A stretch of DNA of 64,000 bases from assembly GCA_015179125.1 (NCBI GenBank), contig WHVA01000185.1:62001-126000 (forward strand). The letters are read 5' to 3'. The stretch comes from Gautieria morchelliformis (taxonomy: Eukaryota; Basidiomycota; Agaricomycetes; Gomphales; Gomphaceae). Positions 6,590-55,635 of this stretch are shown here, one piece after another (positions within the stretch are counted from its first letter, which is position 1; each line of letters opens with the position of its first letter). The position numbers and the translations under genes were made by a program. The notes under the pieces are model-generated. The model saw only the letters and a program-made list of their open reading frames with translations, was not told the origin of the DNA and did no database searches.

Positions 6590-6895
6590 TGTAAGGACCC
6601 GGCCTTTGGCCGGTTACTTACCGGTACAACCTTTTTCTGAGCCCGAGCCTTGTGATACTCGTGCCCAAGTACTGTGATTCTAAGCCTGAGCCCAAGCTCA
6701 TATCCGAGCTTGATCCCATGCCTGAATCCCCTTAGTTACCTATCCTGTTCCATCATGCATCATTAGTATATTGGCCTCACCCTGATTCCGCCGTATATGC
6801 TCGCCCCTGACCCCTACTCTCGCCCGTATATAAACCCCTTGTATGCATTCCTACTCTTCAGTCTGAAAATCAACTACCGTACTCTTGATCCTTAG
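6590..6895 (+). repeat. Old LTR, first part (split by Gypsy-1)
   Basis: This begins TGTAAGG. After Gypsy-1 is removed together with one copy of its CTTAG duplication, it continues at 14825-15018, which ends CCTTACA, the exact reverse complement of TGTAAGG. The reassembled LTR is about 500 bp. A TATATAAA box lies near 6835. No target duplication is visible around the outer ends. Confidence 0.65.
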
Positions 6896-7556
6896 TGTTA
6901 CATATCGAGATTTCCGTTAAGTCGGAACTGGAAAGGACAGCGGCTTCAACTTATAGGTTGCGCCCCCAATGAACTATCATCCTAGGTATTTCGGAAATGA
7001 GTCGGAAGTCGGAAAGTACTGAACTAAAGGTTGGTCCGAACTTGAGTCAGAACTGAGGCGGAAGGCGGAAGACGGAAGGCAGAGAGACAGAGGTCTTGCT
7101 AGACTCGCTGTGCTAAGAACAGGAGATGGAGCGAAGGAAATCAAGTATCGAAGGCGATTATCTGATTGCAGAATAACAGACATACATGACAGGCTTTTAT
7201 ACAAAGAGCTGAGACAACAGGTAATAGGATGGTACTAAGCAAATTCCGGGGGAAGCGGAAGTCGAGTAGACAATGCGTGGGAACTAACTAATTGGGAACA
7301 ATGGGACTACAAGGGGGGTTCAGGGTAAGGTAAAACAATGGCAAAGAACAAGGGGTCGGGAAAACATATCTGACAACGAAACACAAGGAGGGCCCGACAT
7401 ATGGTCTTGATGAACGGTGAGGTGGGTCCGGTGGGTCCGAGTAATAGAGTCGAAATAACAAGGGAATAGAACAATGGGCGGAATGTCAGAAATATCGGAG
7501 GGGCGGAAAGTGGTGCGGAACTGAAGATCGGAAGTCGGAAATGAATGGTCGTAATA
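6896..7556 (-). repeat. Gypsy-1 3' LTR
   Basis: This is a 661-bp direct repeat of 14159-14819. The termini are TGTTA...TAATA on the plus strand; the second terminus is mutated from TAACA. It contains clustered CGGAA direct repeats near 7000-7080 and 7440-7550. Confidence 0.9.
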
Positions 7557-7676
7557 GTATCTCCCTTCTAAGGTCGAGCCCTGCGAGACCACAAGTCGGA
7601 TCACGTGACCTGTGAACAAACACGTTGGAGTTCGAAAGATAGGTGGGAAGCAAACACGTCTTCGTCTTCATCCAAC

Positions 7677-8902
7677 ATGAGCTCCCAACCTGACCTCGCT
7701 AAAATGACCAGCGCTGAAATGAAGAAATATTTTGACGATCTTCTTGCACAGAAGGAGGTGGCGGAAAAGCAAGCGGCCGAGGAAGCTGCGCGGAAAGAGA
7801 AAGAACGGCTGGAGGAGGAGCGCAGGGAGAAGGAGCGCAATGAACAGGAGCGTCGGGACCAGGAGCGGAAGGAGAAGGAGGAAAGGGACCATAAACGCCG
7901 CGAGGAGGAGTCGCGCCTCTGCGAGGAACAGCGGAAACAGGACGTGGCCAAAAAAGCTGCGGAAGACAAGGCCACGGCGGAAAAGGCGGGAAAGCAAAGG
8001 GTGAGTCGGAAACGTCGTTTGCGTAGTTCCGAGGCTGACAGAAAAAACTGCCAGAAGATTGTTGAATCCGAATCCGAGGCGGAATCGGAAAGCATGGCAG
8101 AAAGCACGCCGTCCCCGTGCTGAATCTTGTGGCGGAGCGGAAACGGAGGGCGGACGAATTCCAGCAGGCCAAGAAGAACAAGCTGGCCCACATGGTGGAT
8201 CTCCGGGAATTGGGACCGGAGAATCCCACAACGTGGAAACGGAAAACGAGGGACGATGAAGAGGAGAAAGCCCCTTGCGACACGTGCGAGGTCAAGGGCC
8301 TGGAATGCGGGTGGTCGGAAAATCCACGGGAAACGGCCTGCGAACGGTGCCACGACAAGAAAAGGCGCTGTGTTGTGGATGGGTGTTCCGCGAGGGTGGA
8401 GCATAAAAGGCGAAAGGTTGAGACCGAGGGGCCTGAAACCCCTAAGTCGAAACCGGGACCGAGCGGAAAAAAGGTGGTGGAAGGATTTCCGGTGACCGGG
8501 AATTCGGACACAGCGGTACTCAACCGCTTCAGCATGGTGTCACCGTTATTTGACATCGCCGGGTCGTTGAGGGGAATCCGGAGAACACAACGCGGGATCT
8601 GGAATCTTCTTGCGGAGATGGCAGAAGTTCAACAACAACAGTTGTTGTCTTTTCAAAACCAGATGACCGTCATGTCGATGGTCTTGGAACAGGTGAAACT
8701 GGAGTTCCGGTGGCGGAACGATGTGCTCCAGGACCGCATGGAGTTGCGCATGCGGGAGCAGGAGAACGAGGCGGAAGCGGGTTCGAGTCGAGTGGCGGAT
8801 ATGAGGGTGGAGACGGAGTTGGTGAATGTGCCGATAGGGCATGCGGAAGAAGGTCCGGAAGCGGAGAACGAGGGCAAGGGGGAAACAATGAGGGAGGACT
8901 AG
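7677..8902 (+). pseudogene. Antisense accessory ORF of Gypsy-1: coiled-coil protein with Zn2Cys6 cluster, one frameshift
   Basis: This gene lies on the strand opposite gag-pol, between the pol stop and the 3' LTR. The likely start is ATG 7677 (MSSQPDLAKMTS). Residues from about 25 to 110 form a very charged Glu/Lys/Arg helix, probably a coiled coil, followed by an acidic Ser/Glu run. A 1-nt shift at about 8095-8120 separates the two halves: the first frame stops at 8123 and the second is open from before 8117 to 8902. At 8276-8371 the second half has C-X2-C-X6-C-X10-C-X2-C-X6-C with basic residues between the last two cysteines. This is the exact spacing of fungal Zn(II)2Cys6 DNA-binding domains. 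A second helical region with a QQQQ run (about 8600-8760) and an acidic tail follow. Family knowledge: such clusters bind DNA at CGG triplets. Inference: an element-encoded regulator. A partial second copy is at 17657-17884. Confidence 0.75.
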
Positions 8903-9032
8903 GTGTCGAGAATACTTGTAGAATATTTCTTGAAGTGTCGGAAAATAGTATAACGGAAAATTAATCGGAAATGTTGTGTGACTTAAGGACTGTAAGAAAA
9001 CAATGGGGTATCGGAAATGAGGTTGGAAATGA

Positions 9033-10262
9033 CTAAGGTGCGGAAATGGGGCCAGGCCTATCAGGATAAGATTTGTGGAAATCAGAGATGAGGTCAGAGG
9101 CGTGGTCAAGTTCCGTGGCGGAAATCCACGAGGTCTCTTCGTCGGTGTTTTCGTAGCCTGCCCACTTGACTAGGTACTGGAGTTCGCAGCGGTATCGTCT
9201 GTTGAGCTTGGAGTTGAGAATTTCCGAGATCTCGTATTCCGGTTCTCCGTCGATGATGACTGGCAGAGGCGGAGGTTGTTCTCGATTCGGAATTGTATTC
9301 GGAACTGCGGGCTCAAGCATGGAGCCGTGGAATACCGGATGTACTGCGTGCATATTGTCAGGAAGTCTGAGAGTGACAGAACAACTGCCGGCCTTAGCGA
9401 TGATCTCGTAAGGGCCAAGGTATTTTTCAGAGAGCTTCTTCGAGGGACGAGTGGTGCGGAAGTTTTCAGCTTTGACAAAGACTTTGTCGCCTATCTCGAA
9501 TGCCGGTTGCGGAAGACGTTTCCGATTGGCGGAAGTTTGATATCTCTTTTGGGCAGCGGAAATGTTCTCTCGGAGGTGCTGGTGAAGGTCGTCGAGTTCC
9601 ACAACGAAATCTCGGGCTCTTGCAGAGGCGAGGTCGTGTTCAGGGTGGATGGCGAGATTCGGGTGGTAGCCCTTGTTGGCGTAAAAGGGTGAAATTCCGG
9701 TGGTGGCGGAAGGCGCATTGTTGTAAGCAAATTCCACGAGTGGAAGGAGGTCGGACCAATTGCTGTGTTGGTAGTTGCAATAGACATGGAGATACTGCTC
9801 AAGGGTCTGATTAGTGCGTTCCGTTTGTCCGTCTCCTTCGGGATGATAACCGGAAGTGAAGTGGAGCTTCATGTCGAGAGCCTTGCCGAGCGTGCGGAAA
9901 AAGGATGACACGAATTCTGATCCACAGTCAGAAGTGACATGGGAAGGGATTCCGTGCTTGGAAAATACATGGAGCACGAAGAGTTGTGCAAGCTGGGCGG
10001 AAGTGATGGTGTCGTAGGTCGGAATAAAGATGGACTGTTTTGTCAGGCGGTCAACGATCACTAGAATGGTATCATAACCGGATGACTTAGGAAGTTTCTC
10101 AATGAAATCCATGGATATCGAATTCCACGGTTGTTCCGGGATCAGAAGTTGTCTCAGAAGGCCGTAGGGTTTGTGACGTTGGGGCTTGGCGCGCATACAG
10201 GTGGTGCATGACTTGCAATAGTCTTGGACCATCGTACGGAGAAGGGGCCAAGTGTAGGTACG
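9033..10262 (-). pseudogene. Gypsy-1 integrase and chromodomain
   Basis: This is the C-terminal part of pol. It follows the RT-RNase H frame with only a TGA (10263-10265) between them; a CGA arginine codon is expected there (DII-R-RTYTWP). The zinc-binding start (CKSCTTC) is followed by the catalytic core: Asp in SMDFIEKLP, Asp in TSDCGSEF and Glu in QTERTNQ. The usual Arg of SDRGSEF is Cys here, a CGC-to-TGC type change. The C-terminal chromodomain (EYEISEIL...YLVKWAGY...ETSWI) marks a chromovirus. In this family the chromodomain directs integration to marked chromatin. The frame ends at 9033. The domains are clear; the copy is broken by the upstream stop. Confidence 0.9.
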
Positions 10263-11831
10263 TCAGATTATGTCGAGGGTTTTGTTTTGGCCTTGGTGTC
10301 CTGAGAGTGGGTGATCGTGGCTTTGCTGGAGCACGTGAAGTCGTAGATCATTGGTATCCGGAACGTAGATCCGGGACTTGTACCGGAGAAATCCGTCGGA
10401 ATCGAGGGACCATCCAGGCCTGGTGGGGTCATCGAGGTGGGTTGTGGAGATGGGGTCGGAACGGAGTGTGGAACGGATGTCGGAATGGAGAGACTCGGTG
10501 TCCATAATAACTGAGGCACGGAGTAGCGGAAACTGCAATGCTGTGGCACGCAGGGACGATGCCAGTTGCTCAGTGGAGAATACTGGGCGGAAATTGTGTG
10601 GATTAACGCTGGCATAGTCGCTACTTCCCTCTTTTGGGTAGATGTCCCAACGTCTAGTGAGCGCGTCGGGGTTTGCTCCGAGCTTTCCGGGGCGGAAGCG
10701 GATCACCATGTTGAACTGTGAGAGATATTCCGACCAGAGGACTTGACGGTGAGTCAAAATCTTAGTAGTCACGAAATACTCAAGGTTTTTATGATCCGTT
10801 ACAATGTTGATCAGATAAGTTGGACCTTCGAGGTAGTGTCGCCAGATTTTGAAGGCTTCGAAAATCGCAAGTAGTTCCTTATCGTGGACATCGTAGTTGA
10901 GTTCCGGGGCGGAAAAGGTGCGGGAATGAAAGGCAATCGGATGAATTTCTCCGTCGTTGGGGGAAATGATGGAAAGGATGGCGGCTAGCGCGTAGTCGAA
11001 AGCGTCGGTTTCAAGTACAAGTTGGGCATCAGGAATCCAGAAACCGAGTATGGGAGCCGTAGTGAAGGCCGCTTTGAGGGCTTCAAATGCGGAATGGCAT
11101 TCCAGAGTGAAATTCCATGGAGCACCCTTCCTGGTGAGACGCGTGAGCGGAACGGTAATGTCGGAAAAATTATAAATGAAACGCCGGTAAAAGTTGGAGA
11201 AGCCAAGGAAAGGCTGTACATCCTTAACACGTCGGGGTTCCGGCGATTCTTGAATTGCCTTGACTTTGTCCTCTGCCATGGTAAGGCCCGTAGGGGAGAG
11301 GATGTAGCCGAGGTATTTGACCATGTCGTGATGCCATTCACATTTCTCTGCTTTTGCATAGAGATGGTGTTTGCGTAGACGGCAGAGTACTTCGTGGACA
11401 TGTTCCCGATGTTTTTCTGGTGTGTCGGAATAGATGAGGATGTCGTCAATGTAGACTAGGACGCATACGTCGAGAAGGTCGGAAAATACGTCGTTCATGA
11501 ATCGCTGAAAAGCGGCGGGAGCATTGGTTAGACCAAAAGGCATGACAACCCACTCAAAAGCACCGTAGCGGGTGCGGAAAGTGGTTTTCCACTCATCACC
11601 TTCGCGGATGCGGACAAGGTGATAAGCCTGCCGGAGGTCAATTTTGGTGTAGATATTAGCCCTGCGGGGAGTGTCGAGTAGATCGGAAATGCGCAGAAGC
11701 GGATATTTGTCCTTCTTAGTGAGAGCATTGAGTCCGTGGAAATCGATGCAGAGGCGGAGAGATCCATACTTCTTCTTGACGAAAAGGACCGGAGCTCTGT
11801 GCGGAGACAGCGAAGGGCGGATAAAGCCCAT
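10263..11831 (-). pseudogene. Gypsy-1 reverse transcriptase and RNase H
   Basis: This is an open frame of 522 codons holding the core RT ([25 protein letters not shown], catalytic YIDD within [13 protein letters not shown]) and Ty3-type RNase H ([30 protein letters not shown]). A zinc-binding integrase start ([12 protein letters not shown]) follows. It makes cDNA from the element RNA in the particle. Active-site residues look intact, but the frame is bounded by a TGA at 10263-10265. On its N-terminal side it is separated from protease by further stops and a likely frameshift near 11830-11880. Confidence 0.9.
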
Positions 11832-11871
11832 GTTGAGATGTTCATCGACGAACTCGCAGAGAGTTTGGAGT

Positions 11872-12822
11872 TCACTTTAGGGGCGGAGATGCTCCTTCTT
11901 CCAAATCTATCTTCAGATCGTAAGGTTGATGTTCAGCAGGTTTATTGGCTTTGGCCTTATTGAACACGTCCGGGAAGTCACAATATTCTTCCGGAACTGA
12001 GCTCATGTCGACTGGAGCGGAAGTCGAGGCGGAACGAGCCTTGACTGAAGCCGAATCGGAAAGGTGAAGCTGGAAAATGGTCATATCCTCTTGCCGTTGC
12101 AATACGCGGAAAGCGGTGGCGGAAACGAGCGCAATTCAAGGAGCTTCGAGGGGCAGAGGTGCTAAAGTGGGACCGGAGTGCGGAACTGAATCCACGAGCG
12201 GAGTTGCAGAAGAGGCTTGAACCATCTTTGCGGACGAGGTCGGAATAGACGGAAGTTGATCCGGGGTACGGAACTGTATTTGACCCAATGCCCAGTTAAT
12301 CGACGGATTATATGGGGTGAGCCAATTGTGTCCTAGTACAACGGAACAGCTAGCATCTAGCGGAGTAATGTAAAACGTAACTTCATGGTTGTCCCCAGTA
12401 GCGAAACGGATAGACAGGTCCACGACTTGGGAAATTGCCGTGTTGGATGACCCATCGAAAAGGCGGAGCAGAATTGTTGGAATGTTGCAGGTCGGAAGTT
12501 TATGTTTCAAAACAAAGTCGGAATCGAGGAAACAATGAGTCGAACCAGAGTCGATCAATGCTGTAAACGGGGGTGCCGAAATGGTGTCGGAAGTGAGCGG
12601 AACAGAGAGGGAGTCGGAAGACAAAAGAGCGGATGCGTTGAGTTTAACCTCGTTTGTCGCACGAATGGGGTCAACACAGCCCTCAGCTTGTGCAGAGGCC
12701 AGAGGACTGCTGACTATTTTTTGCATCCGTAGCGGGAGCCGCTTCGGATTTCTCTTCCGTCTTCGCCGCACGGCCCTTGGCCTTAGCGGCGGAAGCGGAA
12801 GCTCAGGTGCAGTCGCGCGCAA
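11872..12822 (-). pseudogene. Gypsy-1 protease and protease-RT linker
   Basis: A retropepsin domain with the active-site motif ALIDSGSTHCFLD lies near 12520-12560, followed by the flap/core region and VVLGHNWL. It would cut the Gag-Pol precursor. The frame is interrupted at 12136-12138, where TGA replaces an expected TGG, and reopens to 11872 as the linker into RT (YCDFPDVFNKAKA). Both interruptions look like decay, not programmed recoding. Confidence 0.8.
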
Positions 12823-12829
12823 CGTGACC

Positions 12830-13881
12830 GCCTTTGCCGCAGAAAAGGCAAAGGTTGTTGTCCATGCGACGCTGGCGTTCTACAGGGGTCAGTTTTCCGT
12901 CCTTCCCAAGTTTGTCGGAAAGGTCCGGAGTGCTCTTCCGGGCATTGGTGTTGGAACCAGAGGCCTGGTTGTTGCGAGGGGTGGAGTTGTTGTTCCGGTT
13001 GCCGGAGTTGGAGCCGGAACTGTTGTTGTTGTTGTTTCCGGAGTTGTTGTTTCCAGAATTGGTCTTCTTTTGTCTTTACCAGACTGCTTGTTGGAAGACT
13101 TGTCGTTCTTGCTCTGGGCGGACGTTTCACGAGCAATCTCGGAGTGTCTTTCCCAGTAGCGTGAATCGATGGATTGGGCTAGGTTGCGGAGATCGGTAAG
13201 GGTGGCGGGTTTTCCGACGCGGGCGATTTCATCCTTGATCCGGGATGGGAGGCCCATGTAAAACTGGCATCAGAGTGCGGCTTCTCCCCATTGGACTCGA
13301 GGAGCGAGCTGCTGGAATGTGACGATGTATTTAGCTATCTTATGAGTGTCTTTCATGCGAAGCTTATCAAGTTCATTTTCCGCATCGGCTTCCATGTCAA
13401 ATGGTCCGAAGTTGCTGCGGAGTTTGGAAACGAAGGTGTGGTAATCGTCAGCCCAGTCGACGAGGGCGAACGGATCCATGAGGGTGGGCTCGAAGTAGTC
13501 GAGCACCGTGCCTCGGAGATAAGAAAGGGCGTAATTGACCTTTCGTTCGTCGTCGGGAAAGGCGTCGGGATGATCGTGGAAGTTGAGTTGAAGCTGGACC
13601 AAAAATGGCTGGAGCTTCTTGGGGTCGGAACCGTCGAATTGATCTGGTTCACGGACTTTGGTCTTGGGGCGTGGTGGTGCTTGGGCCGGGCGCTGAAGTT
13701 GTCTGGCTAGCATGGCGATGGCTTGTGCAAGATCCGGAACTGGAGCAGGCGGAACTGGGTTGGCGGGAATTTGGGTGGGATTGGAGGTGGAGGACCGCCT
13801 GGGGGACCGCCGTGTGGGCCGCCGTGAGGGCCGCCTGGAGGTGGTCCTGGCGGAGGTGGTGGTGGTGGAGCTGGACGTCAA
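12830..13881 (-). pseudogene. Gypsy-1 Gag with CCHC zinc knuckle
   Basis: This is a capsid-like region (PDQFDGSDPKKLQPFLVQLQ, TYHTF-type core, NELDKLRM) that would package element RNA. It is followed by a CCHC knuckle of the form CLFCGKGGHVARDC near 12830-12870. A TGA at 13270-13272 stands where a CGA arginine codon is expected. A short frame change is needed near 12890-12900 to reach the knuckle. The N-terminus is Thr/Ser/Arg-rich. The start at 13881 is the first Met of the frame; an upstream start is possible. Confidence 0.82.
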
Positions 13882-14145
13882 AATGATGCTGCTGTTTGTT
13901 CGCCACTGCTACTCGTCGAATTCCCGTCATAGTCGGGATTGTCGTCGGATTAGCGTCGGGAACGTCTTCGAAACGTGGCGGAATGGCGTCGGAAAGCTCA
14001 TCGTCTGCACGAGAGCTGCCTCAAGGTTCCGCGCGCCTTGGTGCTGCGGACCTGAGACTGCCAAAATAAGAGAGAGCTTTGACAGCTCCTGCTCGAGCTG
14101 AAGTAGCTGTGGTACGAGGAGGCATAGTGATAGTTATCGGGCAGG

Positions 14146-14156
14146 AATCAGATAAT
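14146..14156 (-). promoter_or_regulatory. Gypsy-1 self-priming PBS
   Basis: Read on the minus strand this is ATTATCTGATT, 2 nt inside the 5' LTR. It is perfectly complementary over 11 nt to AATCAGATAAT within the same LTR (14420-14430). It has no resemblance to a tRNA 3' end. This matches the self-primed Tf1/sushi mechanism, where the first 11 nt of the transcript fold back to prime minus-strand DNA. Confidence 0.75.
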
Positions 14157-14158
14157 AC

Positions 14159-14819
14159 TGTTACATATTGAGATTCCCGCTAAGTCGGAACTGGAAAGGA
14201 CAGCGGCTTCAACTTATAGGTTGCGCCCCCAATGAACTATCGTCCTAGGTATTTCGGAAATGAGTCGGAAGTCGGAAAGTACTGAACTAAAGGTTGGTCT
14301 GAACTTGAGTCGGAACTGAGGCGGAAGGCGGAAGACGGAAGGCGGAGAGACGGAGGTCTTGCTAGACTCGCTGTGCTAAGAACAGGAGATGGAGCGAAGG
14401 AAATCAAGTATCGAAGGCGATTATCTGATTGCAGAATAACAGACATACATGACAGGCTTTTATACAAAGAGCTGAGACAACAGGTAATAGGATGGTACTA
14501 AGCAAATTCCGGGGGAAGCGGAAGTCGAGTAGACAATGCGTGGGAACTAACTAATTGGGAACAATGGGACTACAAGGGGGGTTCAGGGTAAGGTAAAACA
14601 ATGGCAAAGAACAAGGGGTCGGGAAAACATATCTGACAACGAAACACAAGGAGGGCCCGACATATGGTCTTGATGAACGGTGAGGTGGGTCCGGTGGGTC
14701 CGAGTAATAGAGTCGAAAGAACAAGGGAATAGAACAATGGGTGGAATGTCAGAAATATCGGAGGGGCGGAAAGTGGTGCGGAACTGAAGATCGGAAGTCG
14801 GAAATGAACGGTCATAACA
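14159..14819 (-). repeat. Gypsy-1 5' LTR
   Basis: This is a 661-bp LTR with perfect TGTTA/TAACA ends, flanked outside by CTTAG (14820-14824). It contains the TATA box and the inferred transcript start. Differences from the 3' LTR are mostly C/T or G/A changes at CpG. Confidence 0.9.
14420..14464 (-). promoter_or_regulatory. Gypsy-1 promoter: TATA box and transcript start
   Basis: TATAAAA on the minus strand (14464-14458) lies 34 nt upstream of AATCAGATAAT (14430-14420). This is normal TATA-to-start spacing, and it places the PBS-complementary 11 nt at the predicted 5' end of the RNA. Confidence 0.65.
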
Positions 14820-14824
14820 CTTAG

Positions 14825-15018
14825 TTAGTTTCTAAGTCTTCACCTCTTAAGCCAAACCTTGCCTCTTATTTGTTTACCTCCGAAGTTGGGACTCATAGGT
14901 AGGGCCACTGCAGCACATAAGCTGAAGCCAAGTCCCACTCCGACCTCCCCATCTGAACCTCACTCCATAACCTCGGACCTTACCTCAGGTTTCGCTCCTG
15001 AGCTCGGTCAGCCTTACA
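14825..15018 (+). repeat. Old LTR, second part
   Basis: This is the continuation of the LTR begun at 6590, ending CCTTACA. The joint with 6895 is marked by the CTTAG duplication of Gypsy-1. Confidence 0.65.
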
Positions 15019-19880: not shown

Positions 19881-20281
19881 TATGTTCAGGGACCTGGCGG
19901 AGTTTGGGTGAGTGACACACTGCATGGGCAAATGCCCTCTTGTCCTCTTCTTACGAGACGCTTCCCACCAGCCGCTGCCCAGTCGGCTCAGACTACTTCG
20001 GCAAGGGCAAGAACTCCGTGTCGAAACTCCGCTTCCACACGAATGAGGCCACCGTGAGTTTGCCCATGACACGTCTAGACGCCTTGTACGTGACTTTCCG
20101 GCCCCTCACTGTGAGGGACTCGAAAAGATTTACCATTATATTTTACTTTTTCCAAAGCAGGCTCGACCCAACGATCACAGACATGACAAGTCACAGGGAC
20201 GACTCAGATGTCAGCGGTGACGCCAAGATAGACAATGGCAAATTCAAGTTGACGAGACCTGTTTAACAACCTGGTCTGAGC
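19881..20281 (+). other. Unassigned open region
   Basis: A 108-codon plus-strand frame (19940-20266) has no family I recognise. It ends just before the Gypsy relic and could be a captured host exon. No support beyond openness. Confidence 0.25.
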
Positions 20282-22585
20282 ATGATGGACCCCATCAAGG
20301 TCGCAGGTGTCATGGACTGGCCAACCCCAGCAAATCGCAAGGAGGTGCAGGCCTTCCTGGGATTTGCCAACTTTTATCGCCGGTTTGTCGAGGGCTTCTC
20401 ACATCATGCGCGACCCCTGTTTGAGCTCACCAAGAAGGATGTACAATGGTCGTGGGGTGATCGTGAACAGTAGGCATTTGATGGGCTGAAGCTGCGATTC
20501 ACATCAATGCCGATCCTGCACGTTGCAGATGACAATCAACCATACCTGGTGGAGGCTGACAGTTCATATGTCGCCACTGGTGCAGTCCTGTCCCAGCGAT
20601 CTCCAGATGACGACAAATGGCATCCCATTGCGTTTTACTCAAAGAGTCTCACTCCTGTGGAGCGAAATTATGAGATTCATGACAAGGAGATGCTGGCTAT
20701 TTATTATTCACGCCCTAGAGGAATGGCGACATTTCCCTGAAGGCACTAAGCATCGCATTGAGATCTGGACAGACCACAAGAACCTGGAGTATTTTCGCAC
20801 TGCAAAGAAGCTTAATCGCAGGCAGGCTAGATGGTTCCTCTACTTGTCGCGTTTTGATTTTGAGCTTCACCATCGGCCTGGTGTCACGATGTGCAAGTCA
20901 GATGCACTGTCGTGGCGCTCAGACCATGGGTCAGGATCAGGTGACAACAGCGATTTGACACTCCTATGCCCAGAGCGGTTCATTGTTCGCGCCCTGGAGG
21001 GGCTCACCCTGGTGGGGGAAGAACATGTGATTGTTCGCGATGTGAAGAAGGCATTTGGGGATGGGTCACTAGAGGACGAGGTCGCAGGGGCGGTAAAGAA
21101 GCTGCAAGAGTCTGGTGGGAAATCGCTGGTGTCTGCAGAGTGGGCTGAGATGGATGGGTTGCTCACATTCCGAGGTAAAGTTTATGTTCCAGATGTCCAG
21201 GACCTCAGGTGATGAATTGTCACCCAGCACCATGATTCGCCGGTCGCTGGTCATCCTGGGCAATGGAAGACCCTTGAACTTGTCTCACGAAATTACTGGT
21301 GGCCCCACATGTCACGGTATATTGGTGAGTACTCCAAGATGTGCGATTTATGCCTGCGAACAACGGCACGAAGGCAGCCACCCCGTGGCGAACTCCATCC
21401 ACTCCCTGTCCCTGAAGCTCACTGGGACATGATCAGTGTTGACTTCATTGTGGAACTTCCTGACGCACATGGCTAAAATGCTGTGATGAATGTAGTGGAC
21501 TCGGTCTCCAAGGGGGCACACTTCATCCCCACCAACACCACGATCACTGCAGCTGGAGCAGCGTGACTTTTCCTACACCATGTCTGGAAGCTGCATGGCC
21601 TCCCGCGAACAGTGGTGTCAGATCGTGGGGTCCAGTTCGTGCGCGAATTCACTTGCGAGCTTTATCACCTGCTGGGAATTCGCATCGCAGCCTCCACAGC
21701 GTACCCCCCGCAGACTGACGGGCAGACGGAGCGACTCAATCAAGAGCTAGAGCAGTACCTTCGACTCTTTGTCAATGAGCGACAAGACAACTGGGATGAC
21801 CTCTTGCCCATGGCTGAGTTCCAGTACAACAACCATGTGCATGCTTCCACTTGTCAATCGCCCTTCATGCTAGACACTGGACGGCACCCACGAATGGGCT
21901 TCGAACCGCATCAACCCCCATTGAACCTTGAGTCTGTCAATGAATTCAAGGAACACATGGAGGAGTCACTGTCAGAAGCGAAGTCGGCAATGGCAAAGTC
22001 GAAGGAGGACATGGCAACATACTATAATCGCTGACGTGAACCAGCACCTACATTTTCGCCGGGTGACAAGGTTTACCTCGATGCAAGTGATATACACACC
22101 ACCTGTCCTTCGAAAAAGCTAGCTCATCGGCAACTTGGCCCCTACGTTGTTGAATGCCAAGTTGGGTCACAAGCCTAGCGTCTCCGCCTCCTAAGGTCTC
22201 TGAGTCGCCTCCACCCTGTTTTCCCCGTCATTAAGCTCACTCCTGCTCCATCCGATCCAATCCTGGGTCAGTGACCATCCCCACCACCTCCACCCATCCT
22301 TATAGAGGGCGATGAGCACTTTGAAGTTGAACAGGTGTTAGACAGTCGCATGTGAGCAAATCGCCTCCATTTCCTCATCAAGTGGAAGGGGTATGGCTAT
22401 GAAGAGAATTCTTGGGAAAATGAAGGCGATGTCCAAGCTCCTGACCTCATTGCTGACTTCTACCGTTCGCATCCAGGTGCCCCTCGTCACATTCGCTCCT
22501 TGGAGGCTGTCACCTTTCAGAATCGCATCCCTGTTCCACCAGTGGGACTTCATGCATTGGGTCGCCGCATTCTAGATGGGGGTGA
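20282..22585 (+). pseudogene. Sushi-like Gypsy relic: RT end, RNase H, integrase, chromodomain
   Basis: This is a 5'-truncated pol related to Gypsy-3. It starts inside the RT thumb ([15 protein letters not shown]), then RNase H ([38 protein letters not shown]). The integrase core has Asp in VDFIVELP, Asp in VVSDRG and Glu in QTERLNQELEQYL. A chromodomain (KWKGYGYEENSW) follows. Several stops (for example at 20471, 21475 and 21565) and frame changes make it inactive. It ends in a purine tract and TGTCAGGGG, the start of an LTR. CGGAA/TTCCG is nearly absent: one in 20281-21300. Confidence 0.88.
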
Positions 22586-22690
22586 TGTCAGGGGTTTTAG
22601 GAATAATAGATCAGATATATCAGAATTGACTTATTTGATGACTCAGGGAGTGGGGACTCTTCGTGCACCCCTGTGCACGGTATATGCGTG
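22586..22690 (+). repeat. LTR start of the sushi-like relic
   Basis: TGTCAGGGG follows a GATGGGGGTGA purine tract exactly as in Gypsy-3 (54791-54812), but the rest diverges from the Gypsy-3 LTR. Confidence 0.5.
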
Positions 22691-23172
22691 AGCTGACTAA
22701 CCTCTGTGGGGCGAGTGCGTCACTGATTGATGTAGGTCACGTGACCGAGTCGAGGAAGAAACAGGTGAGAACAGAGGAACTAGGGGTCCGAAGCTCTCGC
22801 TTTCGGAACAGTATAGTGTAGCCAGTTATAGTAGACTCTCAACAAAGAATTAGAGAAATCTATCAACAAATAAGCTCTGTAGCTATCAAACAAGTCTACA
22901 GTTACTTCAGGAGGTGAAACAGCAATTCTGGATTGTTCTGGGTAATATTCTGGATGTTTTGTTTGTACATTTATGGTAGCTACTTATACTAAAATAGTAG
23001 TGACTACCAGTGTTCAAGATAGTGATAGAATGGGTCAGGATAATGTGGAAATGCTCCACAGGCTGCATACAGCTGTGGGGCAGGAACAATGATGGGGATA
23101 CTTGTCCTACTGACAAGTATCTAAGCTGGGACCTTGGAGCAATGTACAAAGCCCCTTTCAACATGTAATACA
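22691..23172. repeat. Dispersed repeat, copy A
   Basis: This is shared with 24835-25303. Landmarks are a GTCACGTGACCG block, CTGTAGCTATCAAACAAG followed by a TACAGT...TTCAGG block, and ACTAGTGTTCAAGATA-like ends. It is probably an LTR by size, but no termini or genes were found. Confidence 0.55.
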
Positions 23173-23552
23173 GCTCGTAATCAGTGGAGCTGGTCAGGGG
23201 AATAGAATAGAATAGAAACCTTGTGTGTCCTGTGCTGTGTGCCTACAGCAGCCTTGGCAAGGCATTTGCCATCTCTGTACCTCTCTCCTGAGGTAGCTAT
23301 TCAGTACATCCATATATAGGACTGTATACTGTAATCTCCATCGTGTCCGATGTCCCTGTATGGGACTATTAGTCCCATAGCAATATTTCTTCTGACCAGG
23401 GCCCAGGTGCCTGCTTTCCAGGGCAGGCACTGTTACTGGTGCATGGATTATTTCTCCCAGATGTTAGCTCAGTTAGATGATTGTATAGACCTTAGAATAA
23501 TGTTTGATATAGCTATCCATTTATTCTAACAAGGGGAACACCAATCACACAC

Positions 23553-23690
23553 TGTGAATTATCGCACGCATTATCGGACTGTGCATTATTGCATGCTTTA
23601 TCGCATGCATTATCGCACTGTGCATTATCACATGCATTATCGCATGCTTTATCGCACGCATTATCGCACACTGCATTATCGCAGCATGTT
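23553..23690 (+). repeat. Minisatellite of GCATTATCGCAY-type units
   Basis: About ten degenerate units of roughly 12 bp lie in tandem without spacers. Variants include GCATTATCGCAC and GCTTTATCGCAT. Confidence 0.8.
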
Positions 23691-23983
23691 GTTGCTGGCC
23701 CCTGAGCTTCTCCTAGCCTTTAGCATCCTTCTGTCTTGTGTTCCGTTTATTTCCCTTCCTGTTCCGGCCCCTTCCGACATCATTCCTTCCTTATCTGTCC
23801 AGCCCTGTTATCGCTGGCGTGATTGCTTATGTAACTCGGGCATTTGGTGATCAGGCTAGCATGCCCGAGTTTGCTTATAGTCGTAGTTAGGTGGAGAAGG
23901 GGTTCCTTAGAGTTTTCTCTTTGGATCCCCCTTCGCCAGTTCGCCGCTTGAGTGTAGAGCGTCTGCCTAGGTTACCCTTATAG
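23691..23983 (+). repeat. LTR candidate related to the Gypsy-3 family
   Basis: It contains CCTTAGAGTTTTCTCTTTGGAT, close to the Gypsy-3 LTR transcript-start block, and ends GGTTACCCTTATA, close to GGTTGCCCTTACA. It also has three TTCCG within about 60 bp. Confidence 0.5.
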
Positions 23984-24251
23984 TAGTGAAGGTGAAGTAT
24001 GAAAACTCACCGGTGGTGCTTAAGTCCTCCTCTGGTCAAAGATAGGACTCTATAGAAGGGCTCAAGACGATAGTCACAGTGAGGTCAAGTTTTGCACAAG
24101 ATAGACGTATGATAATTGAACAGCAGAATATACATGTGAATGTAAACTACTTATACCGAATGCTCATATGTTGTCAGTGAATAGGGAAGAGGCCGTCATG
24201 AGGGTTAGATAGGGGTGCGCAGTCAGGATACAAATAGGTGAAATACATATA
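23984..24251 (+). repeat. TGTCAAG-family LTR fragment (left of fold-back element)
   Basis: This matches 16040-16300 and 59265-59530. It continues after the fold-back element at 24655-24720. Confidence 0.65.
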
Positions 24252-24834: not shown

Positions 24835-25303
24835 TATGTGCTGACTAAGCCTTTCGAGGTGCGTCCGACATTGATGGATGAGAGTCACGTGACCGTGTCG
24901 ACAGAAGATTGGTGTCGATCCAAGGGATAATCAGATCAAAAGCGTTCGCTTTTAAGGTAATATAGAGTAAACAGTGATAGTGAACCCTCAACGAAGATTT
25001 GGAGTAAACTATCAAGATTTGGGCCCTGTAGCTATCAAACAAGACTACAGTGGCTTCAGGGGGTAAAATAATCGATTCTGGATAATCTCGTTCATACATT
25101 TGTACTAGCTATTTATACTATGTTAATAGTAACTACTAGTGTTCAAGATATTGGACAGATGGGTCGAAAAGCTACTTGTAACTAAGGGGTGACTAATTTA
25201 TAGTCATAAAGTCATGGGGTGATGGAGATAGTGTTAGGATTGTTTAGGCTTTGGGATAGAGATCTGTTCCTAGCATACAAAGTCCCTATCCACATGATGT
25301 TAG
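24835..25303. repeat. Dispersed repeat, copy B (interrupted by Copia copy 1)
   Basis: This is homologous to 22691-23172. The Copia element inserted at its end, duplicating GTTAG (25299-25303 and 31058-31062); sequence after 31062 is the other side of the same target. Confidence 0.6.
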
Positions 25304-25918: not shown

Positions 25919-25933
25919 GATTAAGAGTCTCAT
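25919..25933 (+). promoter_or_regulatory. Copia PBS, complementary to the tRNA-Lys(CUU) anticodon arm
   Basis: The sequence GATTAAGAGTCTCAT sits directly after the LTR. Its reverse complement, ATGAGACTCTTAATC, equals nucleotides about 26-40 of the canonical eukaryotic tRNA-Lys(CUU), as I remember it. It does not match a tRNA 3' end. This implies priming by a 5' half-tRNA, as known for Drosophila copia with initiator tRNA. Confidence 0.7.
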
Positions 25934-25942
25934 CGACTTTTC

Positions 25943-30435: not shown

Positions 30436-30442
30436 GGGGGAG

Positions 30443-31057: not shown

Positions 31058-31062
31058 GTTAG

Positions 31063-36867: not shown

Positions 36868-36879
36868 CGATGTCAGAAC

Positions 36880-37494: not shown

Positions 37495-37501
37495 CTCCCC
37501 C

Positions 37502-41995: not shown

Positions 41996-42004
41996 GAAAA
42001 GTCG

Positions 42005-49065: not shown

Positions 49066-49555
49066 TGTCAGGGGACACCCTGTTTTCCATTTCCAGTTCC
49101 AACACCACACCCAGTTCTGACTCCATTTCCGACTCCGGTTCCGGTTCCGATTCCATCTCCGCCTCCGCCTTCGGAAATGATTCCGCTTCTAGGAGAACTT
49201 CCACCAGTTCTGTTCGCCTTGCCAGTTCCACTCCAATTTCTGAGTTCCACCCTCGGAACAGTGTCGGAAATCAAGCGACTCGCGTAATAGGTGGCATCAA
49301 GGGTCAATCAAGGGTCAGGGTGGTCAGGGAGGTGCAGGGTTGATGGCGGGTGCCAAGTGTTGTCCCTGGTTGTGCAGCGTAGTATAATACGGGCTCGCTG
49401 ACATTGGGGGTCCTTAGACTTTTCTCTTTGGATTTCCCCTTGTCAGGTGAGAATCCCCTCTCTTGTATGCTCTGTTCATTAATACAGACTTTGGATTTCC
49501 CCTTGTCAGTTGTGTGGTAGTGTGATCTCCACAACCAGCCAGGGTTGCCCTTACA
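49066..49555 (+). repeat. Gypsy-3 5' LTR
   Basis: Its left part is a run of TTCCG/TCCG repeats (49100-49180). TATAATAC (49384-49391) lies about 32 nt before AGACTTTTCT. Confidence 0.88.
49416..49425 (+). promoter_or_regulatory. Gypsy-3 inferred transcript start / primer sequence
   Basis: AGACTTTTCT is exactly complementary to the PBS at 49558-49567 and sits at normal distance from the TATA-like box. Confidence 0.6.
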
Positions 49556-49557
49556 GC

Positions 49558-49567
49558 AGAAAAGTCT
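49558..49567 (+). promoter_or_regulatory. Gypsy-3 self-priming PBS
   Basis: AGAAAAGTCT, 2 nt after the LTR, pairs over 10 nt with 49416-49425. In the 3' LTR the partner is AGATTTTTCT (55147-55156), which still pairs through one G-U. Confidence 0.65.
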
Positions 49568-49742
49568 CTTCCCTAGAGGACCGGCAGTTGTACTGCACGT
49601 TGCATTTGCCATAGGTGCGTTCGGAATCGGAGACAGCGACTCAGAGATCGCAACCTCTTCCGCACACACAGCGTACGACAGCCCCTCTTCTTACGTCGAG
49701 TTCCCAACCCCGGAAATCCCATCCCATATTTCTCCTTCCGAA

Positions 49743-50916
49743 ATGGATCCGGACGATCGTCTTCGGAATATGGAGGAGGAATTGACGCGGAACCGGATGA
49801 AGACCGACGCGATTGAAACAGCCTTACAAGCGATTTTGGCTAAGTTAGATATTCCACAAGGTGGTGGAAATGAAATGCTGGATGACCCGGATTTCGGAAA
49901 AGCAGAAGCAGCGGAAGAGAGGGTGTCCTCGAAATTAGCAAAGGTCAAACCCACAACTCCGGCGGACTTTGACGGAGATTGGGAAAAGGGACGCGCATTC
50001 TTCAACACATGCAGCATCTACTTCGCAATTGTCGGGGACCTCTTTCCGAACGACCAGGCTCGGATCCACTGGGCATTTTCCTTTTCAAGTCAGAGCACGC
50101 AGCCCGTTTTGCAAACAAGGTGATCCGACATGAAGCGAAGGGCAAGGGGAACTACTTCCGGGACTGGGATGCCTTCGAGAAAACATTTTCCGACCAGTTC
50201 TGCCCGACAAACAAGCAGCTCACAGCCCTTACGAAGCTCAAGGGGACCAGCTGGTACCAGGCCAAGGATCCAGTCGATGACTACATCGATCGCTTCCAGG
50301 AGCTCATCGACCTTGCGGAGTATGACGACGACAAGACGATCGTCATCAAATTCTGACGAGGACTTGATCCGACACTCCAGAACCAAGTTGCGCTGCTTGG
50401 GGATGGAGCTCCGGATTTCGATGACCCGGAAGGGTGGTACCAAGCTGCGCAGAGGGTGTCCCGGAACAGGGAAGCAAATGAGGCCTTCGTGGAGACAAAC
50501 CGGAACATGACGTGCAGTTCCGCTCGTCCTACTCCACCTGTGCCAAAACCCGGAAGTGCATTCATTCCCACACGGAAAATATTTCCGACGCTTGCTCCCC
50601 TGCTCCTATTAGGAACCCTAGCCCCCCTCCCTCAAAGGGTGGCCCTACCCCGATGGATGTTGACCGCATGCGTGGAAAAGGCCACGGAACTATCACCTGC
50701 TTCCGATGCCGACAACCAGGCCACTATGCTCGCGAGTGCCCCCAAGCCTTTGACATCCGGCTTATGACCACGGAGGAGAAACTCGAGCTCCTTCCAGAGT
50801 TCCTCGCACTCGCGGACATAAGCAGAGTGCCCACTGCGGAAGTACTTTCCGAAAATGCGGAACATGGTCCACCGGAAGCGGAAGATGCGTCGGATTTTGT
50901 GACGCGCAGCGGGTGA
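49743..50916 (+). pseudogene. Gypsy-3 Gag with CCHC knuckle
   Basis: The start is ATG 49743 (MDPDDRLRNMEEEL), with a coiled-coil N-terminus. The capsid core (WYQAKDPVDDYIDRFQELID) is in a second frame after a shift near 50070-50100. A TGA at 50354-50356 stands where CGA is expected (IVIKF-R-RGLDP). A further shift near 50570 leads to the knuckle CFRCRQPGHYAREC (about 50698-50740). It would form the particle; this copy cannot. Confidence 0.85.
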
Positions 50917-51659
50917 GATGTGTGCCCCTGCTGCCTGTACATAACCGGTTTGCCTGTCTTGAAGTAGAGAATGAAAAGCCCCCACTCCCCTCACTTCATA
51001 CAGACCCACCGGATAAAGTCACACAAAAACCAAATCCGACACCCCATCCATCCCGCATCCGCCCTTGGGAGAGACACCTTCCAAAGCGCTATGTTGTTGC
51101 TGCCACCCCTGGCCCCAAGTCACTAGTCATTAAGGTGGAGATCCAGACAACAGATACGGCGGAAGTCAAATTCGGACCCGCCCTTGTCGATTGCAGGGCC
51201 ACTGGTCAGTTTATAGACCAGGACTATGTGGAACGGAACCGACTGACCACGCGGAAGTTGCAACACGCAATCCCGGTGTTCAATGTGGATGGAAGCCCCA
51301 ATGAGGAAGGGTCCATCACGGAGATAGTAGACACAATTCTCCGCTACGATGGACACTCAGAACGCACTTCCTTTGCAGTCACCAGCCTGGGGAAGCAAGA
51401 CATCATCCTCAGGTTTACCTGGCTTCAGGAACACAACCCGGAGATCAATTGGCAGACTCGGAAGGTAATGATGAGTCGATGTCCAGCCAAGTGTCACATG
51501 TGCCGGTCGGAAGTGCGGAAGGAGCGCCAGGAGCAGCGGAAGACCGAACGGCTCATACAGACATGTCGTTCTGGCCCCCATCCACTGCTTGCAGAAGAAG
51601 ACTCCGAAGCGGAATTTGAACCGGATCCCATTTCCAATTCCGATTCCGACTCGGCCTAG
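50917..51659 (+). pseudogene. Gypsy-3 protease region
   Basis: A retropepsin-like domain has ALVDCRATGQFID (codons at 51183-51221) where the family has D-S/T-G-A. The catalytic Asp stays, but the next two residues are Cys and Arg, so the enzyme is probably inactive. Downstream, a CPAKCHMCRSE segment and an acidic tail end at 51659. Confidence 0.75.
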
Positions 51660-51685
51660 AAGACACTCTGGCGGAAGGGGAGCGC

Positions 51686-54600
51686 TTGCTGTATGTAAAC
51701 CTTCCGCCGGAGACGGAACACATCCGCGCCACTGGAAATATTTCGCAGCGCCTTGCTGAAGCCTCCAAGAGACATGATAGAGTGGAGGCGGAAATTCCGG
51801 AGTACCTGCGGGAGTTCGAGGACGTCTTTTCCAAGGAGTCGTTTGATGCCCTGCCTCCATGGAAGCTGTGGGACCACGCGCCATCAAGTTGGAGCCTGGG
51901 TCAAAGCCCACCAACTGCAAAGTCTACCCGCTGTCACCCAAGGAGCAGGTAGAGCTCGATGCATTCCTTGCGGAAAACCTCCGTACAGGGAGGATCCGCC
52001 CCTCCAAGTCACCCATGGCATCTCCGGTGTTCTTCATCAAGAAGAAGGACGGCTCGCTCAGACTTGTGCAGGATTACCGGGCCTTGAATGCGATCACGAT
52101 CAAGAACCGGTACCCTATTCCACTCATTTGGAACTGATCACACAACTCCGCGGGGCGAGGTACTTCACTAAGCTGGATGTCCGCTGGGGCTTCAATAATG
52201 TCCGGATCCGAGAGGGAGACGAGTGGAAGGCCGCATTCCACACCAACCGAGGACTCTTTGAGCCACAGGTCATGTTCTTTGGCCTCACCAACAGTCCCGC
52301 CACGTTCCAGACGATGATGAATGACATTTTCCGTGACATGATAGCAGAAGGGGTTGTCTGCGTCTACCTCGATGACATCCTCATCTTCACAAAAAAATGT
52401 CCGACATCGGGAAGTCGTGCGGAGAGTGCTGGAACGGCTCCGGGAGTACAACCTGTGTCTCAAGCCGGAAAAGTGCGAATTTGAGCGGACGCGGATAGAG
52501 TATCTTGGGGTGATTGTGTCGGAAGGAAAGGTGGAAATGGACCCAGTCAAAGTTTCCGGTGTGTCGGATTGGCCCGTGCCGCGAACAAGAAGGAGGTCCA
52601 GTCCTTCATTGGGTTTGTCAATTTCTACCGGCGGTTCATCAAGGACTTCTCCTGCCACGCCCGTCCCTCTTCGACCTCACCAAGAAGGAGGTTGGATGGC
52701 GGTGGGGAGAGCCGGAACAGGCCTCCTTTGAGAAACTCAAAGAGCTGATCACTTCTGCCCCGGTCCTGATCTTCCCCGACGACTCTCGCCCTTATCGAGT
52801 GAGGCGGATTCTTCCGACACGGCTACCGGAGCGGTCTTGTCACAACAGTCATCGGAGATGGTGGGAGGTGGCATCCGATTGCCTTCTTCTCTAAGAGCCT
52901 CAGTCCGGTTGAGCGGAACTATGAGATCCATGACAAGGAGATGCTGGCAATCATCCGAGCGCTGGAGGAGTGGCGACACTTCCTCGAGGGTGCTCTATGC
53001 CCATTTGATATCTGGACAGACCACAGAACCTCGAGTATTTCCGCACATCTAAGAAGCTGAACCGACGACAAGCACGGTGGTCCCTACACCTGTCCCGGTT
53101 CGACTTCATACTCCACCACCGCCCCGGCCGCACCAGGGCAAGCCCGATGCCCTATCCTGCCACGCGGATCATGAGAGCGGAAGTGGAGACAATGCGGATA
53201 TGACACTGCTCCGCCCAAGTCTCTTTGCAATCCGGCCCTAGAAGGAGTGACTGCAGTTGGAGCGGAAGCGGAAATGCTCCGGGACATCCGGAGGCAGTAC
53301 CGGAATGGAGAGAAGGAGGAGTCGGTGGTGAAGGCAGTGGAGGAACTTCGGAAAGGGCACTCACGGTCTGTACGGGCAGCGGAATGGTCGGAACGTGACG
53401 GGCTGCTCCACTTCAGAGGCAAGGTTTACGTCCCAGGTGGGGAGGACCTCCGCCGCTGCATCATGTCCCAGCACCATGACACACGAGTCGCTGGGCAAGC
53501 TGGCAGGTGGAAGACACTGGAGTTAGTGGCTCGGAATTACTGGTGGCCTCAGATGTCCGCTACATTGGACAGTACGTGAAGACATGTGACCTTTGTCTCC
53601 GAACCAAAGTGCAACGACATCCGCCTGTCGGAGAACTTGTTCCGCTCCTGATTCCCGAATCCCGCTGGGACACCATCAGCGTCGACTTCATTGTTGAACT
53701 CCCGGAGTCTCATGGCTACGACGCGATCATGAACGTCGTGGATTCGGTAAGCAAGGTGTCCCACTTCATTCCGACGCACACGATGATCACAGCCCTCGGC
53801 GCGGCCCTCCTGTTCCTTGCACATGTCTGGAAGTTGCATGGGCTCCCGAAGCAAGTTGTTTCTGACCGAGGTCCGCAGTTTGTCGCGGAACTGACTCGGG
53901 AACTCTACCGCCTGCTCGGCATAAAGCTAGCTACCACCACAGCGTACCACCCGCAGGGTGACGGACAGACGGAACGGGTCAATCAGGAGTTGGAGCAATA
54001 TCTCCGCCTCTTTGTCAATGAGAGGCAGGATAACTGGGATGAGTTACTTCCACTGGCGGAATTCCAATACAACAACCATGTTCATTCCACCATGCAACAG
54101 ACTCCCTTCATGCTTGACTCCGGACGACACCTGCAGATGGGCTTCGAACCACGCCAGGCTGAGTCCTGACTCGAGACGGTCAATGAGTTCCGTGACCGCA
54201 TGGACTCCACCCTTTCGGAAGCCAAGTCTGCCCTCGCAAAGGCCAAGGATGACATGGCAAGGTACTACAACCAACGCCGGGTTCCTGGCCTAGAGTACCA
54301 AATTGGAGACAAGGTGTATCTAGATGCAAGTGACATCCGTACCACACGCCCTTCGCAGAAGCTTGCCCACCGCTACCTTGGGCCCTTCACAGTGACGCGG
54401 AGGGTTGGACGGAATGCATACCGCCTGCGACTTCCGATGTCCATGTCCCGCCTCCACCCCGTCTTCAACGTGGTGAAGTTACTCCCTATGCTTGAGGACC
54501 CAATTCCAGGTCGGAAGGCTCATCCGCCACCTCCGCCGGAAATTGTAGATGGGGAAGAGCACTACGTGGTGGAACGGATCCTGGACAGCCGGTTTGTGCG

Positions 54601-54803
54601 AGGACGACTCCAATTCCTCGTGAAATGGGAAGGGTATGGGTACGAGGAGAATTCGTGGGTCCCGGAGCAAGATGTTTCCGCTCCTGACAAACTCCGGGAG
54701 TTCTATAGGACACATCCAGGTGCCCCTCGCCAAATCCGCTCGCTGGCATTTCAATCCCTTGTGTCCCGTGCTTCAAGGACGCAGCACGCTAGAGGGGGGG
54801 TGA
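51686..54803 (+). pseudogene. Gypsy-3 RT, RNase H, integrase and chromodomain
   Basis: RT motifs are spread over several frames: [16 protein letters not shown] near 52040, [16 protein letters not shown] near 52275, and catalytic YLDD near 52365. RNase H follows ([12 protein letters not shown] near 52917). Integrase (53507-54169) has Asp in VDFIVELP, Asp in VSDRGPQF and Glu in QTERVNQELEQYL. Its frame ends at TGA 54167-54169. The next frame (from 54200) carries the GPY/F region and chromodomain (HYVVERIL, LVKWEGYGYEENSWV) and then runs on into the LTR. At least four frameshifts are needed overall, so it is inactive. Confidence 0.88.
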
Positions 54804-55284
54804 TGTCAGGGGACACCCTGTTTTCCATTTCCAGTTCCGACACCACACCCAGTTCCGACTCCATTTCCGACTCCGGTTCCGGTTCCGATTCCATCTCCGC
54901 CTCCGCTTTCGGAAATGATTCCGCTTCGGGGAGAACTTCCACCAGTTCTGTTCGCCTCGCCAGTTCCACTCCAATTTCCGACTTCCACTCTCGGAACAGT
55001 GTCGGAAATCAAGCGACCCGCGTAATAGGTGGCATCAAGGGTCGATCAAGGGTCGGGGAGGTGCAGGGTTGATGGCGGGTGCCAAGTGTTGTCCCTGGCT
55101 GCGCAGTGTAGTATAATACGGGCTCGCTGACATTGGGGGTCCTTAGATTTTTCTCTTTGGATTTCCCCTTGTCAGGTGAGAATCCCCTCTCTTGTATGCT
55201 CTGTTCATTTATACATACTTTGGATTTACCCTTGTCAGTTGTGTGGTAGTGTGATCTCCACAACTAGCTAGGGTTGCCCTTACA
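54804..55284 (+). repeat. Gypsy-3 3' LTR
   Basis: This is a 481-bp LTR, about 9 bp shorter than the 5' copy by a small deletion near 55045-55070, with scattered substitutions. Confidence 0.88.
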
Positions 55285-55635
55285 GATGAAGCGCCTTAAC
55301 CAAATCAGTTGTTTAGCGCCCTCAGTAAGTGCCATGTATTTGGCTTCCATAGTAGATAATGTGATCGTTTGCTGCTTCTTTGAGCTCCATGTGATAGCTC
55401 CTCTTCCTAGTATAGCCACGTAGCCCCTAATAGATAATGCATTGGTTCTATTGGCATATTCTGAGTCAACGAATATTTCAAGCTCGAGACCAGTGTCTCA
55501 GCTGAAAGTTATTCCATCATCAGGTGATCCCTTGAGGTACCTGAGTACATGTTTGATCACCATCCAGTGCTCGGCTCCATAAGTGGTAGTGAATTGACTA
55601 AGATGTTGTATAGTGTGTCTCGGTTCAAGTTATTG
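55285..55635 (-). pseudogene. Copia family B fragment: RT end and RNase H
   Basis: This is the reverse complement of sequences equivalent to 58740-58960 joined to 60461-60570. On the minus strand it encodes a RYLKGSPDDGITFS-type RT end followed by the RNase H start (VDSEYANRTNALS, AITWSSKKQQTITLS). Here the RNase H is continuous, giving the uninterrupted version of the target used by the insertion at 58963. Confidence 0.75.

Follow-up and report, generated by a model that had tools for sequence, protein, structure and literature searches.

Why does a single retrotransposon repeat one five-base word along its whole length, codons included, and could the gene on its opposite strand encode the protein that reads that word? 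These questions are raised by a 64,000-nucleotide stretch of the genome of the basidiomycete Gautieria morchelliformis (contig WHVA01000185.1, positions 62,001 to 126,000; hereafter the window), in which an element that we call E1 occupies positions 6896..14819. We found that at least two related Gypsy families of this fungus, E1 among them, have a spliced antisense gene between pol and the 3' long terminal repeat (LTR), encoding a short protein with a cysteine cluster, a coiled coil and an acidic tail. The word of E1 is CGGAA. A sister family, F3, has a different antisense protein and a different word, and the two pairs may represent family-specific readers of their own elements.

CGGAA is selected as a DNA motif in E1

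The gag-pol genes of E1 are on the minus strand of the window. Counted on the plus strand, E1 contains 100 CGGAA and 28 TTCCG, or 128 sites in 7.9 kb, compared to 16.9 and 7.8 expected from a dinucleotide model. The two words together were present at 9-22 per kb over 7001-15000, whereas the remaining window mostly had 0-3 per kb. A preliminary description of this DNA had reported about 20 occurrences in 9001-10000, where we counted 19, and a similar density in the LTRs and around the antisense open reading frame (ORF), which agrees with the range given above. It had also pointed to close direct arrays at 6990-7080. The LTR adjoining the antisense gene (6896..7556, minus strand) has 13 CGGAA and 2 TTCCG, and we confirmed the array there (6992-7077, with CGGAA at 6992, 7003, 7010, 7059, 7066 and 7073) and found another at 7479-7540 (CGGAA at 7479-7536).

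The motif is also prominent in coding sequence. There were 57 CGGAA in the 4,056 nt of E1 gag-pol coding sequence, compared to 18.0 (s.d. 3.6) in 2000 shuffles of synonymous codons, all of which stayed below 57. When pentamers were ranked against codon-preserving shuffles with the strands merged, CGGAA was first in E1 (57 vs 18.4) and first in E2, a second Gypsy family of the window (51 vs 18.6). It was depleted in 12 pooled control ORFs (9 vs 29; rank 505). These controls are open frames of at least 200 residues elsewhere in the window, some of which overlap and some of which are perhaps non-genic. The preliminary description had proposed to judge the motif against codon-preserving shuffles and unrelated genes, and its density is above both. 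The sites occupy all three codon phases.

CGGAA was also retained among copies more often than comparable sequences. In three parts of E1 analyzed together, it was kept at a frequency of 0.716, compared to 0.540 for other CpG-containing pentamers (39 and 535 sites, p=2e-4), and the excess was detected in exon 2 of the antisense gene alone (p=0.014). The corresponding values for E2 were 0.931 and 0.799 (86 and 1398 sites, p=0.002). That CGGAA in E1 has been selected as a DNA motif is well supported.

The antisense gene is spliced and encodes a protein with zinc-cluster spacing

The antisense gene is on the plus strand and had been described as one ORF, 7677-8902, with a perfect Zn2Cys6 spacing. 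The spacing holds: a cysteine scan found C-x2-C-x6-C-x10-C-x2-C-x6-C at 8276..8371. The single open frame does not, as there are two exons, and the window copy has a frameshifting 34-nt gap near 8113 relative to related copies. Exon 1 (7677..8000) encodes many charged residues and is followed by the donor GTGAGT in 30 of 31 aligned copies. From the copy alignment, the intron (8001..8054, with an approximate end) runs from GTGAGT to CCAG, and its start reads GTGAGTCGGAAA in 24 of the 31. Exon 2 (8055..8902) encodes the zinc cluster, a basic linker, a long coiled coil and an acidic tail. The place of an antisense gene relative to pol and LTR was read directly in E1, in L051 and in L052, a copy of F3. 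The Zn2Cys6 binuclear cluster has the spacing CX2CX6CX5-12CX2CX6-8C, and the cysteines of the E1 protein are spaced within these limits.

We searched for E1 and its relatives in the 122-Mb genome assembly. Exon 2 gave 146 scored matches (from 699 candidates), 120 of which were free of stop codons, with frameshifts not counted. The cysteine pattern was within an open frame in 29 of the 31 copies. Among these 29, the median ratio of nonsynonymous to synonymous divergence (dN/dS) was 0.18 (405 of 406 pairs, which are not independent of each other). All six cysteines were invariant in 15 chosen copies, and 14 of these matched the Pfam family Zn_clus (PF00172) at E<=1, the best at 6e-4. A single-sequence AlphaFold2 prediction was confident for the coiled coil (helix 142-234) and of low confidence for the zinc region. 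The antisense gene of E1 is a real, spliced two-exon gene under purifying selection.

Comparisons to the window copy indicated an unusual history. The median dS was 0.556 for the antisense gene (30 copies) and 0.164 for the integrase (23 copies), and dN/dS was 0.22 for both. Exon 2 was 74-86% identical to the window copy, whereas the LTR and integrase were mostly 90-94% identical. This excess divergence of the antisense gene (8117-8902; L001-L051) over the LTR and integrase suggests exchange of the gene as a module, or retention of older alleles in the pool.

No relative of the antisense protein was found in other species at E<=1e-3 (1153 candidates). A profile built from 15 copies likewise had no match there among 7998 candidates at E<=0.01, and a search of viral contigs found none. 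The reverse transcriptase (RT) of E1 had many relatives in other species, with 7836 of 8000 scored candidates matching at E<=1e-30; species named among the 120 best matches listed include members of Pleurotus, Pisolithus, Trametes, Armillaria and Moniliophthora, pointing to a probable agaricomycete host.

A sister family has another putative reader and another word

F3, represented by L052, shares 68% DNA identity with E1 across 2.8 kb of pol, and the proteins are 69-75% identical (357 of 521 residues in RT and 299 of 397 in integrase, IN). Its antisense gene has two exons and lies between pol and LTR, as in E1. There were 199 matches to the F3-type gene in the genome, and 127 of the 150 listed were free of stop codons. 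The antisense protein has the cluster C-x2-C-x6-C-x15-C-x2-C-x6-C in the F3 copies L053 and L054, and a third F3-type gene with the same spacing (CX2CX6CX15CX2CX6C) adjoins an E2 copy in L050. Because the middle of this cluster is longer (x15) and its plan is otherwise the same, we refer to it as a six-cysteine cluster and not as Zn2Cys6. BLASTP found no significant similarity between the E1 and F3 antisense proteins (best E 0.72).

The words of the two families differ as well. The top pentamer in F3 gag and pol under codon-preserving shuffles was CGAGG (62 vs 27.2), equalled by CCGAG (58 vs 23.5), with no excess of CGGAA (17 vs 14.9); E1 had no excess of CGAGG (15 vs 13.9). The difference persisted where the encoded peptides are identical. 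In identical RT and IN peptides, CGGAA occurred 14 times in E1 and 3 times in F3, and CGAGG 2 times in E1 and 13 times in F3 (Fisher p=2e-4). Identical peptides of L051 and F3 gave 9:3 for CGGAA and 2:7 for CGAGG, and CGGAA counts were 7:1 for E2 versus F3 and 11:1 when E2 was set against a relative at 20.7-22.6 kb of the window that is not saturated. Because identical peptides have family-specific word counts, the family words are written largely with synonymous codons, and the coding-sequence CGGAA of the E1 family arises largely in this way. We considered a single word common to all elements of this genome and rejected it, as neither F3 nor the Copia elements of the window are CGGAA-rich. 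The prediction of one motif per factor, modelled on the VANC proteins of Arabidopsis VANDAL transposons, gains support from F3, in which the antisense cysteine-cluster gene and the motif both differ from those of E1.

Structure of E1 and the other elements

E1 is a Ty3/Gypsy chromovirus. On the minus strand it encodes gag (capsid; 13270..13881), an aspartic protease (12136..12822), RT and RNase H (10263..11831), and an integrase with SH3_Tf2-1 domain and chromodomain (9033..10232), which is the order gag, protease, RT-RNase H, integrase with the chromodomain at the end of the integrase. The second LTR (14159..14819, minus strand) is ~98% identical to the first, and the element is flanked by the target site duplication CTTAG (6891..6895 and 14820-14824).

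E2 (49066..55285, plus strand) has 86 CGGAA sites in 6.2 kb. It is about as CGGAA-rich as E1 and was missing from the preliminary description. We found 33 stretches matching E2 in the genome, of which 24 span its full length with 94-100% identity. One copy, L046, has a single 1429-codon ORF with 73 CGGAA, compared to 19.1 in shuffles, and E2 copies have both orientations of the word in similar number. The six-cysteine pattern was absent from every frame of the window copy. A wider cysteine pattern gave three matches at 20 E2 loci, all in flanking DNA outside E2 and one of them an F3-type gene. The window copy has lost 24 sites that are present in most other copies, and 20 of the 24 now read TGGAA or CAGAA, as CpG decay would leave them. 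The DNA beside one E2 copy (L056:1-187) and one F3 copy (L052:7815-8001) is 91% identical over 187 bases, and a shared insertion preference is possible.

Several other elements have words of their own. A degenerate Gypsy element at 19900-24200 in the window is a relative of E2, with 66% DNA identity. It has the 7-mer GCGATAA/TTATCGC nine times, compared to 0.2 expected, and its coding fragments are modestly enriched in ATCGC and GCGAA. Two Copia elements on opposite strands (25302-31058 and 36877-42634) are 99.98% identical over 5.8 kb and have identical LTRs. Their GACTCGA words are mostly in the LTRs, and the Copia ORF was not enriched in the LTR word. Family G (L055, G000:C225:180700-183700), another Gypsy family, has an excess of CGAAG/GCGAA and a broken antisense frame; by eye, the start of this frame resembles exon 1 of E1.

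CpG is retained in the saturated elements

The ratio of observed to expected CpG was 1.09 in E1, 1.20 in L051, 1.03 in F3 and 0.82-0.92 in E2. Other stretches of the window had ratios of 0.37-0.62 in six of seven cases, and the seventh, which is GC-rich (1-3 kb), had 0.92. With both words masked, the coding sequences gave 0.93 for E1, 1.13 for L051, 0.92 for F3, 0.73 for E2 and 0.38 for Copia. Because their LTRs are identical, the Copia elements are younger than E1. Despite this they have a ratio of 0.44, which weakens youth alone as the cause of high CpG. The genome contains three DNA-methylase-like matches. The CpG values are an indirect sign and would fit elements that historically escaped CpG methylation.

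A proposed role for the antisense proteins, and its rivals

We propose, with a probability of roughly one in two, that the antisense proteins are family-specific, self-recognising anti-silencing or activating factors that resemble VANC by convergence and have their sites spread through coding sequence. Each protein would bind the word of its own family at many places along the element, and this binding would mark the element as self. The bound protein would then keep the element in open, poorly CpG-methylated chromatin and drive its expression, with host genes and rival families little affected. E2, which has no such gene, would probably exploit the E1 protein in trans, in parallel to AT9TSD1, an unrelated element of Arabidopsis in which VANC6 motifs occur. 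A more elaborate version is one that we hold tentatively, at rather less than even odds. It has the word as a private barcode over the whole element, codons included. The reader would be an antisense protein with a cysteine cluster, evolving fast, that labels the element as self and prevents CpG methylation along its whole body while leaving host genes alone. With each splitting of a family, barcode and reader would co-evolve into a new pair, and families that lack the gene, E2 for example, would pirate a barcode and so share in the protection.

Several observations weigh against the proposed self-recognition. E2 lacks the gene and yet carries the motif, counter to a strict pairing of gene and motif, and L052 lacks exactly the stretch encoding the cysteine cluster and has kept its CGAGG word. 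The preliminary description had suggested checking whether motif density falls in family members without the ORF. E2 and L052 keep their motifs, so that the density in a given copy cannot be told from whether it has the gene, and we rejected a density fixed copy by copy by the gene. The link between factor and motif rests on two families and on general knowledge of zinc clusters. The zinc cluster of E1 is just below the Pfam cut-off (19.1 bits for the first member and 15.5 for the window copy, with a cut-off of 21), and the cluster of F3, with its unusually long x15 middle, falls outside the Zn2Cys6 spacing and has no Pfam match. Nor is each word strictly confined to its family, since the hexamer TCGGAA is in excess in F3 pol alone (14 vs 4.7) and CGAGG is about equally frequent in identical peptides of E2 and F3 (5:4). 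Conservation of CGGAA was not significant in the integrase tail or the LTR alone (p=0.11 and 0.12), with the same direction in both. In family G, the third family examined, the word is weak (CGAAG, 15 vs 5.2) and the CpG ratio of pol is nevertheless 1.16, or 1.12 alongside the masked values; because this family also keeps CpG, CpG retention is no proof of an effect of saturation. The proposed binding and its anti-silencing or activating effect are our inference, and two reader-word pairs are few. The self-recognising factor suggested in the preliminary description is partly supported, by a motif selected as DNA, a conserved antisense gene of DNA-binding type and the F3 pair, and the simple correspondence of motif and gene does not hold.

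The antisense protein could instead be an ordinary activator that binds the motif in its own LTRs, with the sites in the body serving as extra enhancers and having no anti-silencing role. We consider this possible, on the unlikely side. The dense direct arrays in the LTRs favor it, and a zinc cluster, basic linker, coiled coil and acidic tail would together make up the plan of a small activator. However, sites in the LTRs would suffice for such a protein, making saturation of the integrase, RT and protease coding sequence superfluous, and activation of a promoter does not need CpG to be retained over the whole element.

It is doubtful that the words are read by host DNA-binding proteins, each family being adapted to a different host factor and the antisense proteins acting otherwise. 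The presence of the same motif in E2 without the gene is readily explained in this way, and host Zn2Cys6 factors typically have sites that contain CGG, as far as the available text of the reports goes (PMC5559640, PMC5468973). Reading by host factors leaves unexplained why E1 and F3, sisters so similar in RT and IN, differ in motif and each have their own protein, and CGGAA is depleted in the control ORFs of the window.

We regard as very improbable a function of the motif in RNA rather than DNA (packaging, translation or escape from small RNAs). Strand bias in E1 (100:28) and in F3 (CGAGG, 71:21) would be expected from such a function, but E2 copies have no such bias, and the available account of VANC21 describes orientation bias at DNA sites as well (PMC5735166). 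An artefact of mutation, codon usage or codon pairs is hardly credible: codon usage alone accounts for 18 of the 57 sites in coding sequence, about one third, and we rejected the artefact on the basis of the excess over codon-preserving shuffles in all three phases, the sites in the LTRs, the different words of sister families in one genome and the depleted control ORFs.

Comparison with known systems

Zinc-cluster proteins with sites of a comparable type are, in the available portions of the reports, Pho7, with TCG(G/C)(A/T)xxTTxAA, and AmyR, with CGGAAATTTAA (PMC5559640, PMC5468973). Additional antisense ORFs between pol and the 3' LTR are described in plants for maize Grande (gene23), rice RIRE2 and Silene Retand (PMC7264820). 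In the accessible part of that review, many elements retain them in most or all of their copies, a nuclear location and regulatory role are suspected for some, and no clear similarity to known proteins or function is given (PMC7264820). They have the same place and orientation as the genes of E1 and F3; unlike them, the E1 and F3 genes encode cysteine clusters and are matched by a DNA motif found throughout the family, which together suggest a function. The brtn ORF of Botrytis Boty, as partially described, is a further additional antisense ORF (PMC8365987). By title and abstract, we found no report of an antisense or additional zinc-cluster ORF with such a motif in a Gypsy element; subscription papers were mostly outside the coverage of this search.

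Fungal transposons have been proposed to bring their own escape from methylation-based silencing, in the form of TET/JBP dioxygenases on DNA transposons of Agaricomycetes and other fungi (PMC12730594, from the part available). That system differs in being an enzyme and not a sequence reader, and in being on DNA transposons and not LTR elements. A search of this genome gave no Tet_JBP match, but its controls gave none either, so that the result does not show absence. HBZ of HTLV-1 is similar in being the product of a spliced antisense gene that starts near the 3' LTR and encodes a DNA-binding-type regulator; it differs in being a bZIP protein, and motif saturation is not known for it.

In the literature that we found, sequence-specific anti-silencing by transposons has been reported for a single group, the VANDALs of plants. 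If our proposal is true, such anti-silencing extends by convergence to retrotransposons and fungi, a function is suggested for antisense ORFs of LTR elements that have long been known and yet unexplained, and a DNA-binding site is spread through the coding sequence of a retrotransposon. The presence of two reader-word pairs in the same genome opens the idea to direct testing.

VANDALs are DNA transposons. E1, in contrast, is an LTR retrotransposon whose extra gene is antisense and encodes a zinc cluster. In the available parts of the reports, VANC proteins are transposon-encoded factors whose short motifs are dense in their own family and rare elsewhere, and factor-motif pairs differ between related families (PMC5735166, PMC10398659). 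The VANC6 motifs are also present in AT9TSD1, whose methylation is lost in lines with VANC6, and E2 carrying the motif of E1 parallels this case (PMC5735166). As described there, VANDAL motifs are mainly in non-coding tandem repeats, whereas the E1 word also fills coding sequence. With respect to exclusivity, E1 and F3 are each enriched in their own word, which is rare in most of the window, and CGGAA is shared by E2. The likeness is that the word is dense in its own family in both E1 and F3, that many sites have the same orientation, and that the pairs differ between relatives. We therefore liken the E1 and F3 proteins to VANC as factors that may work alike by convergence, and do not file them as members of the VANC family.

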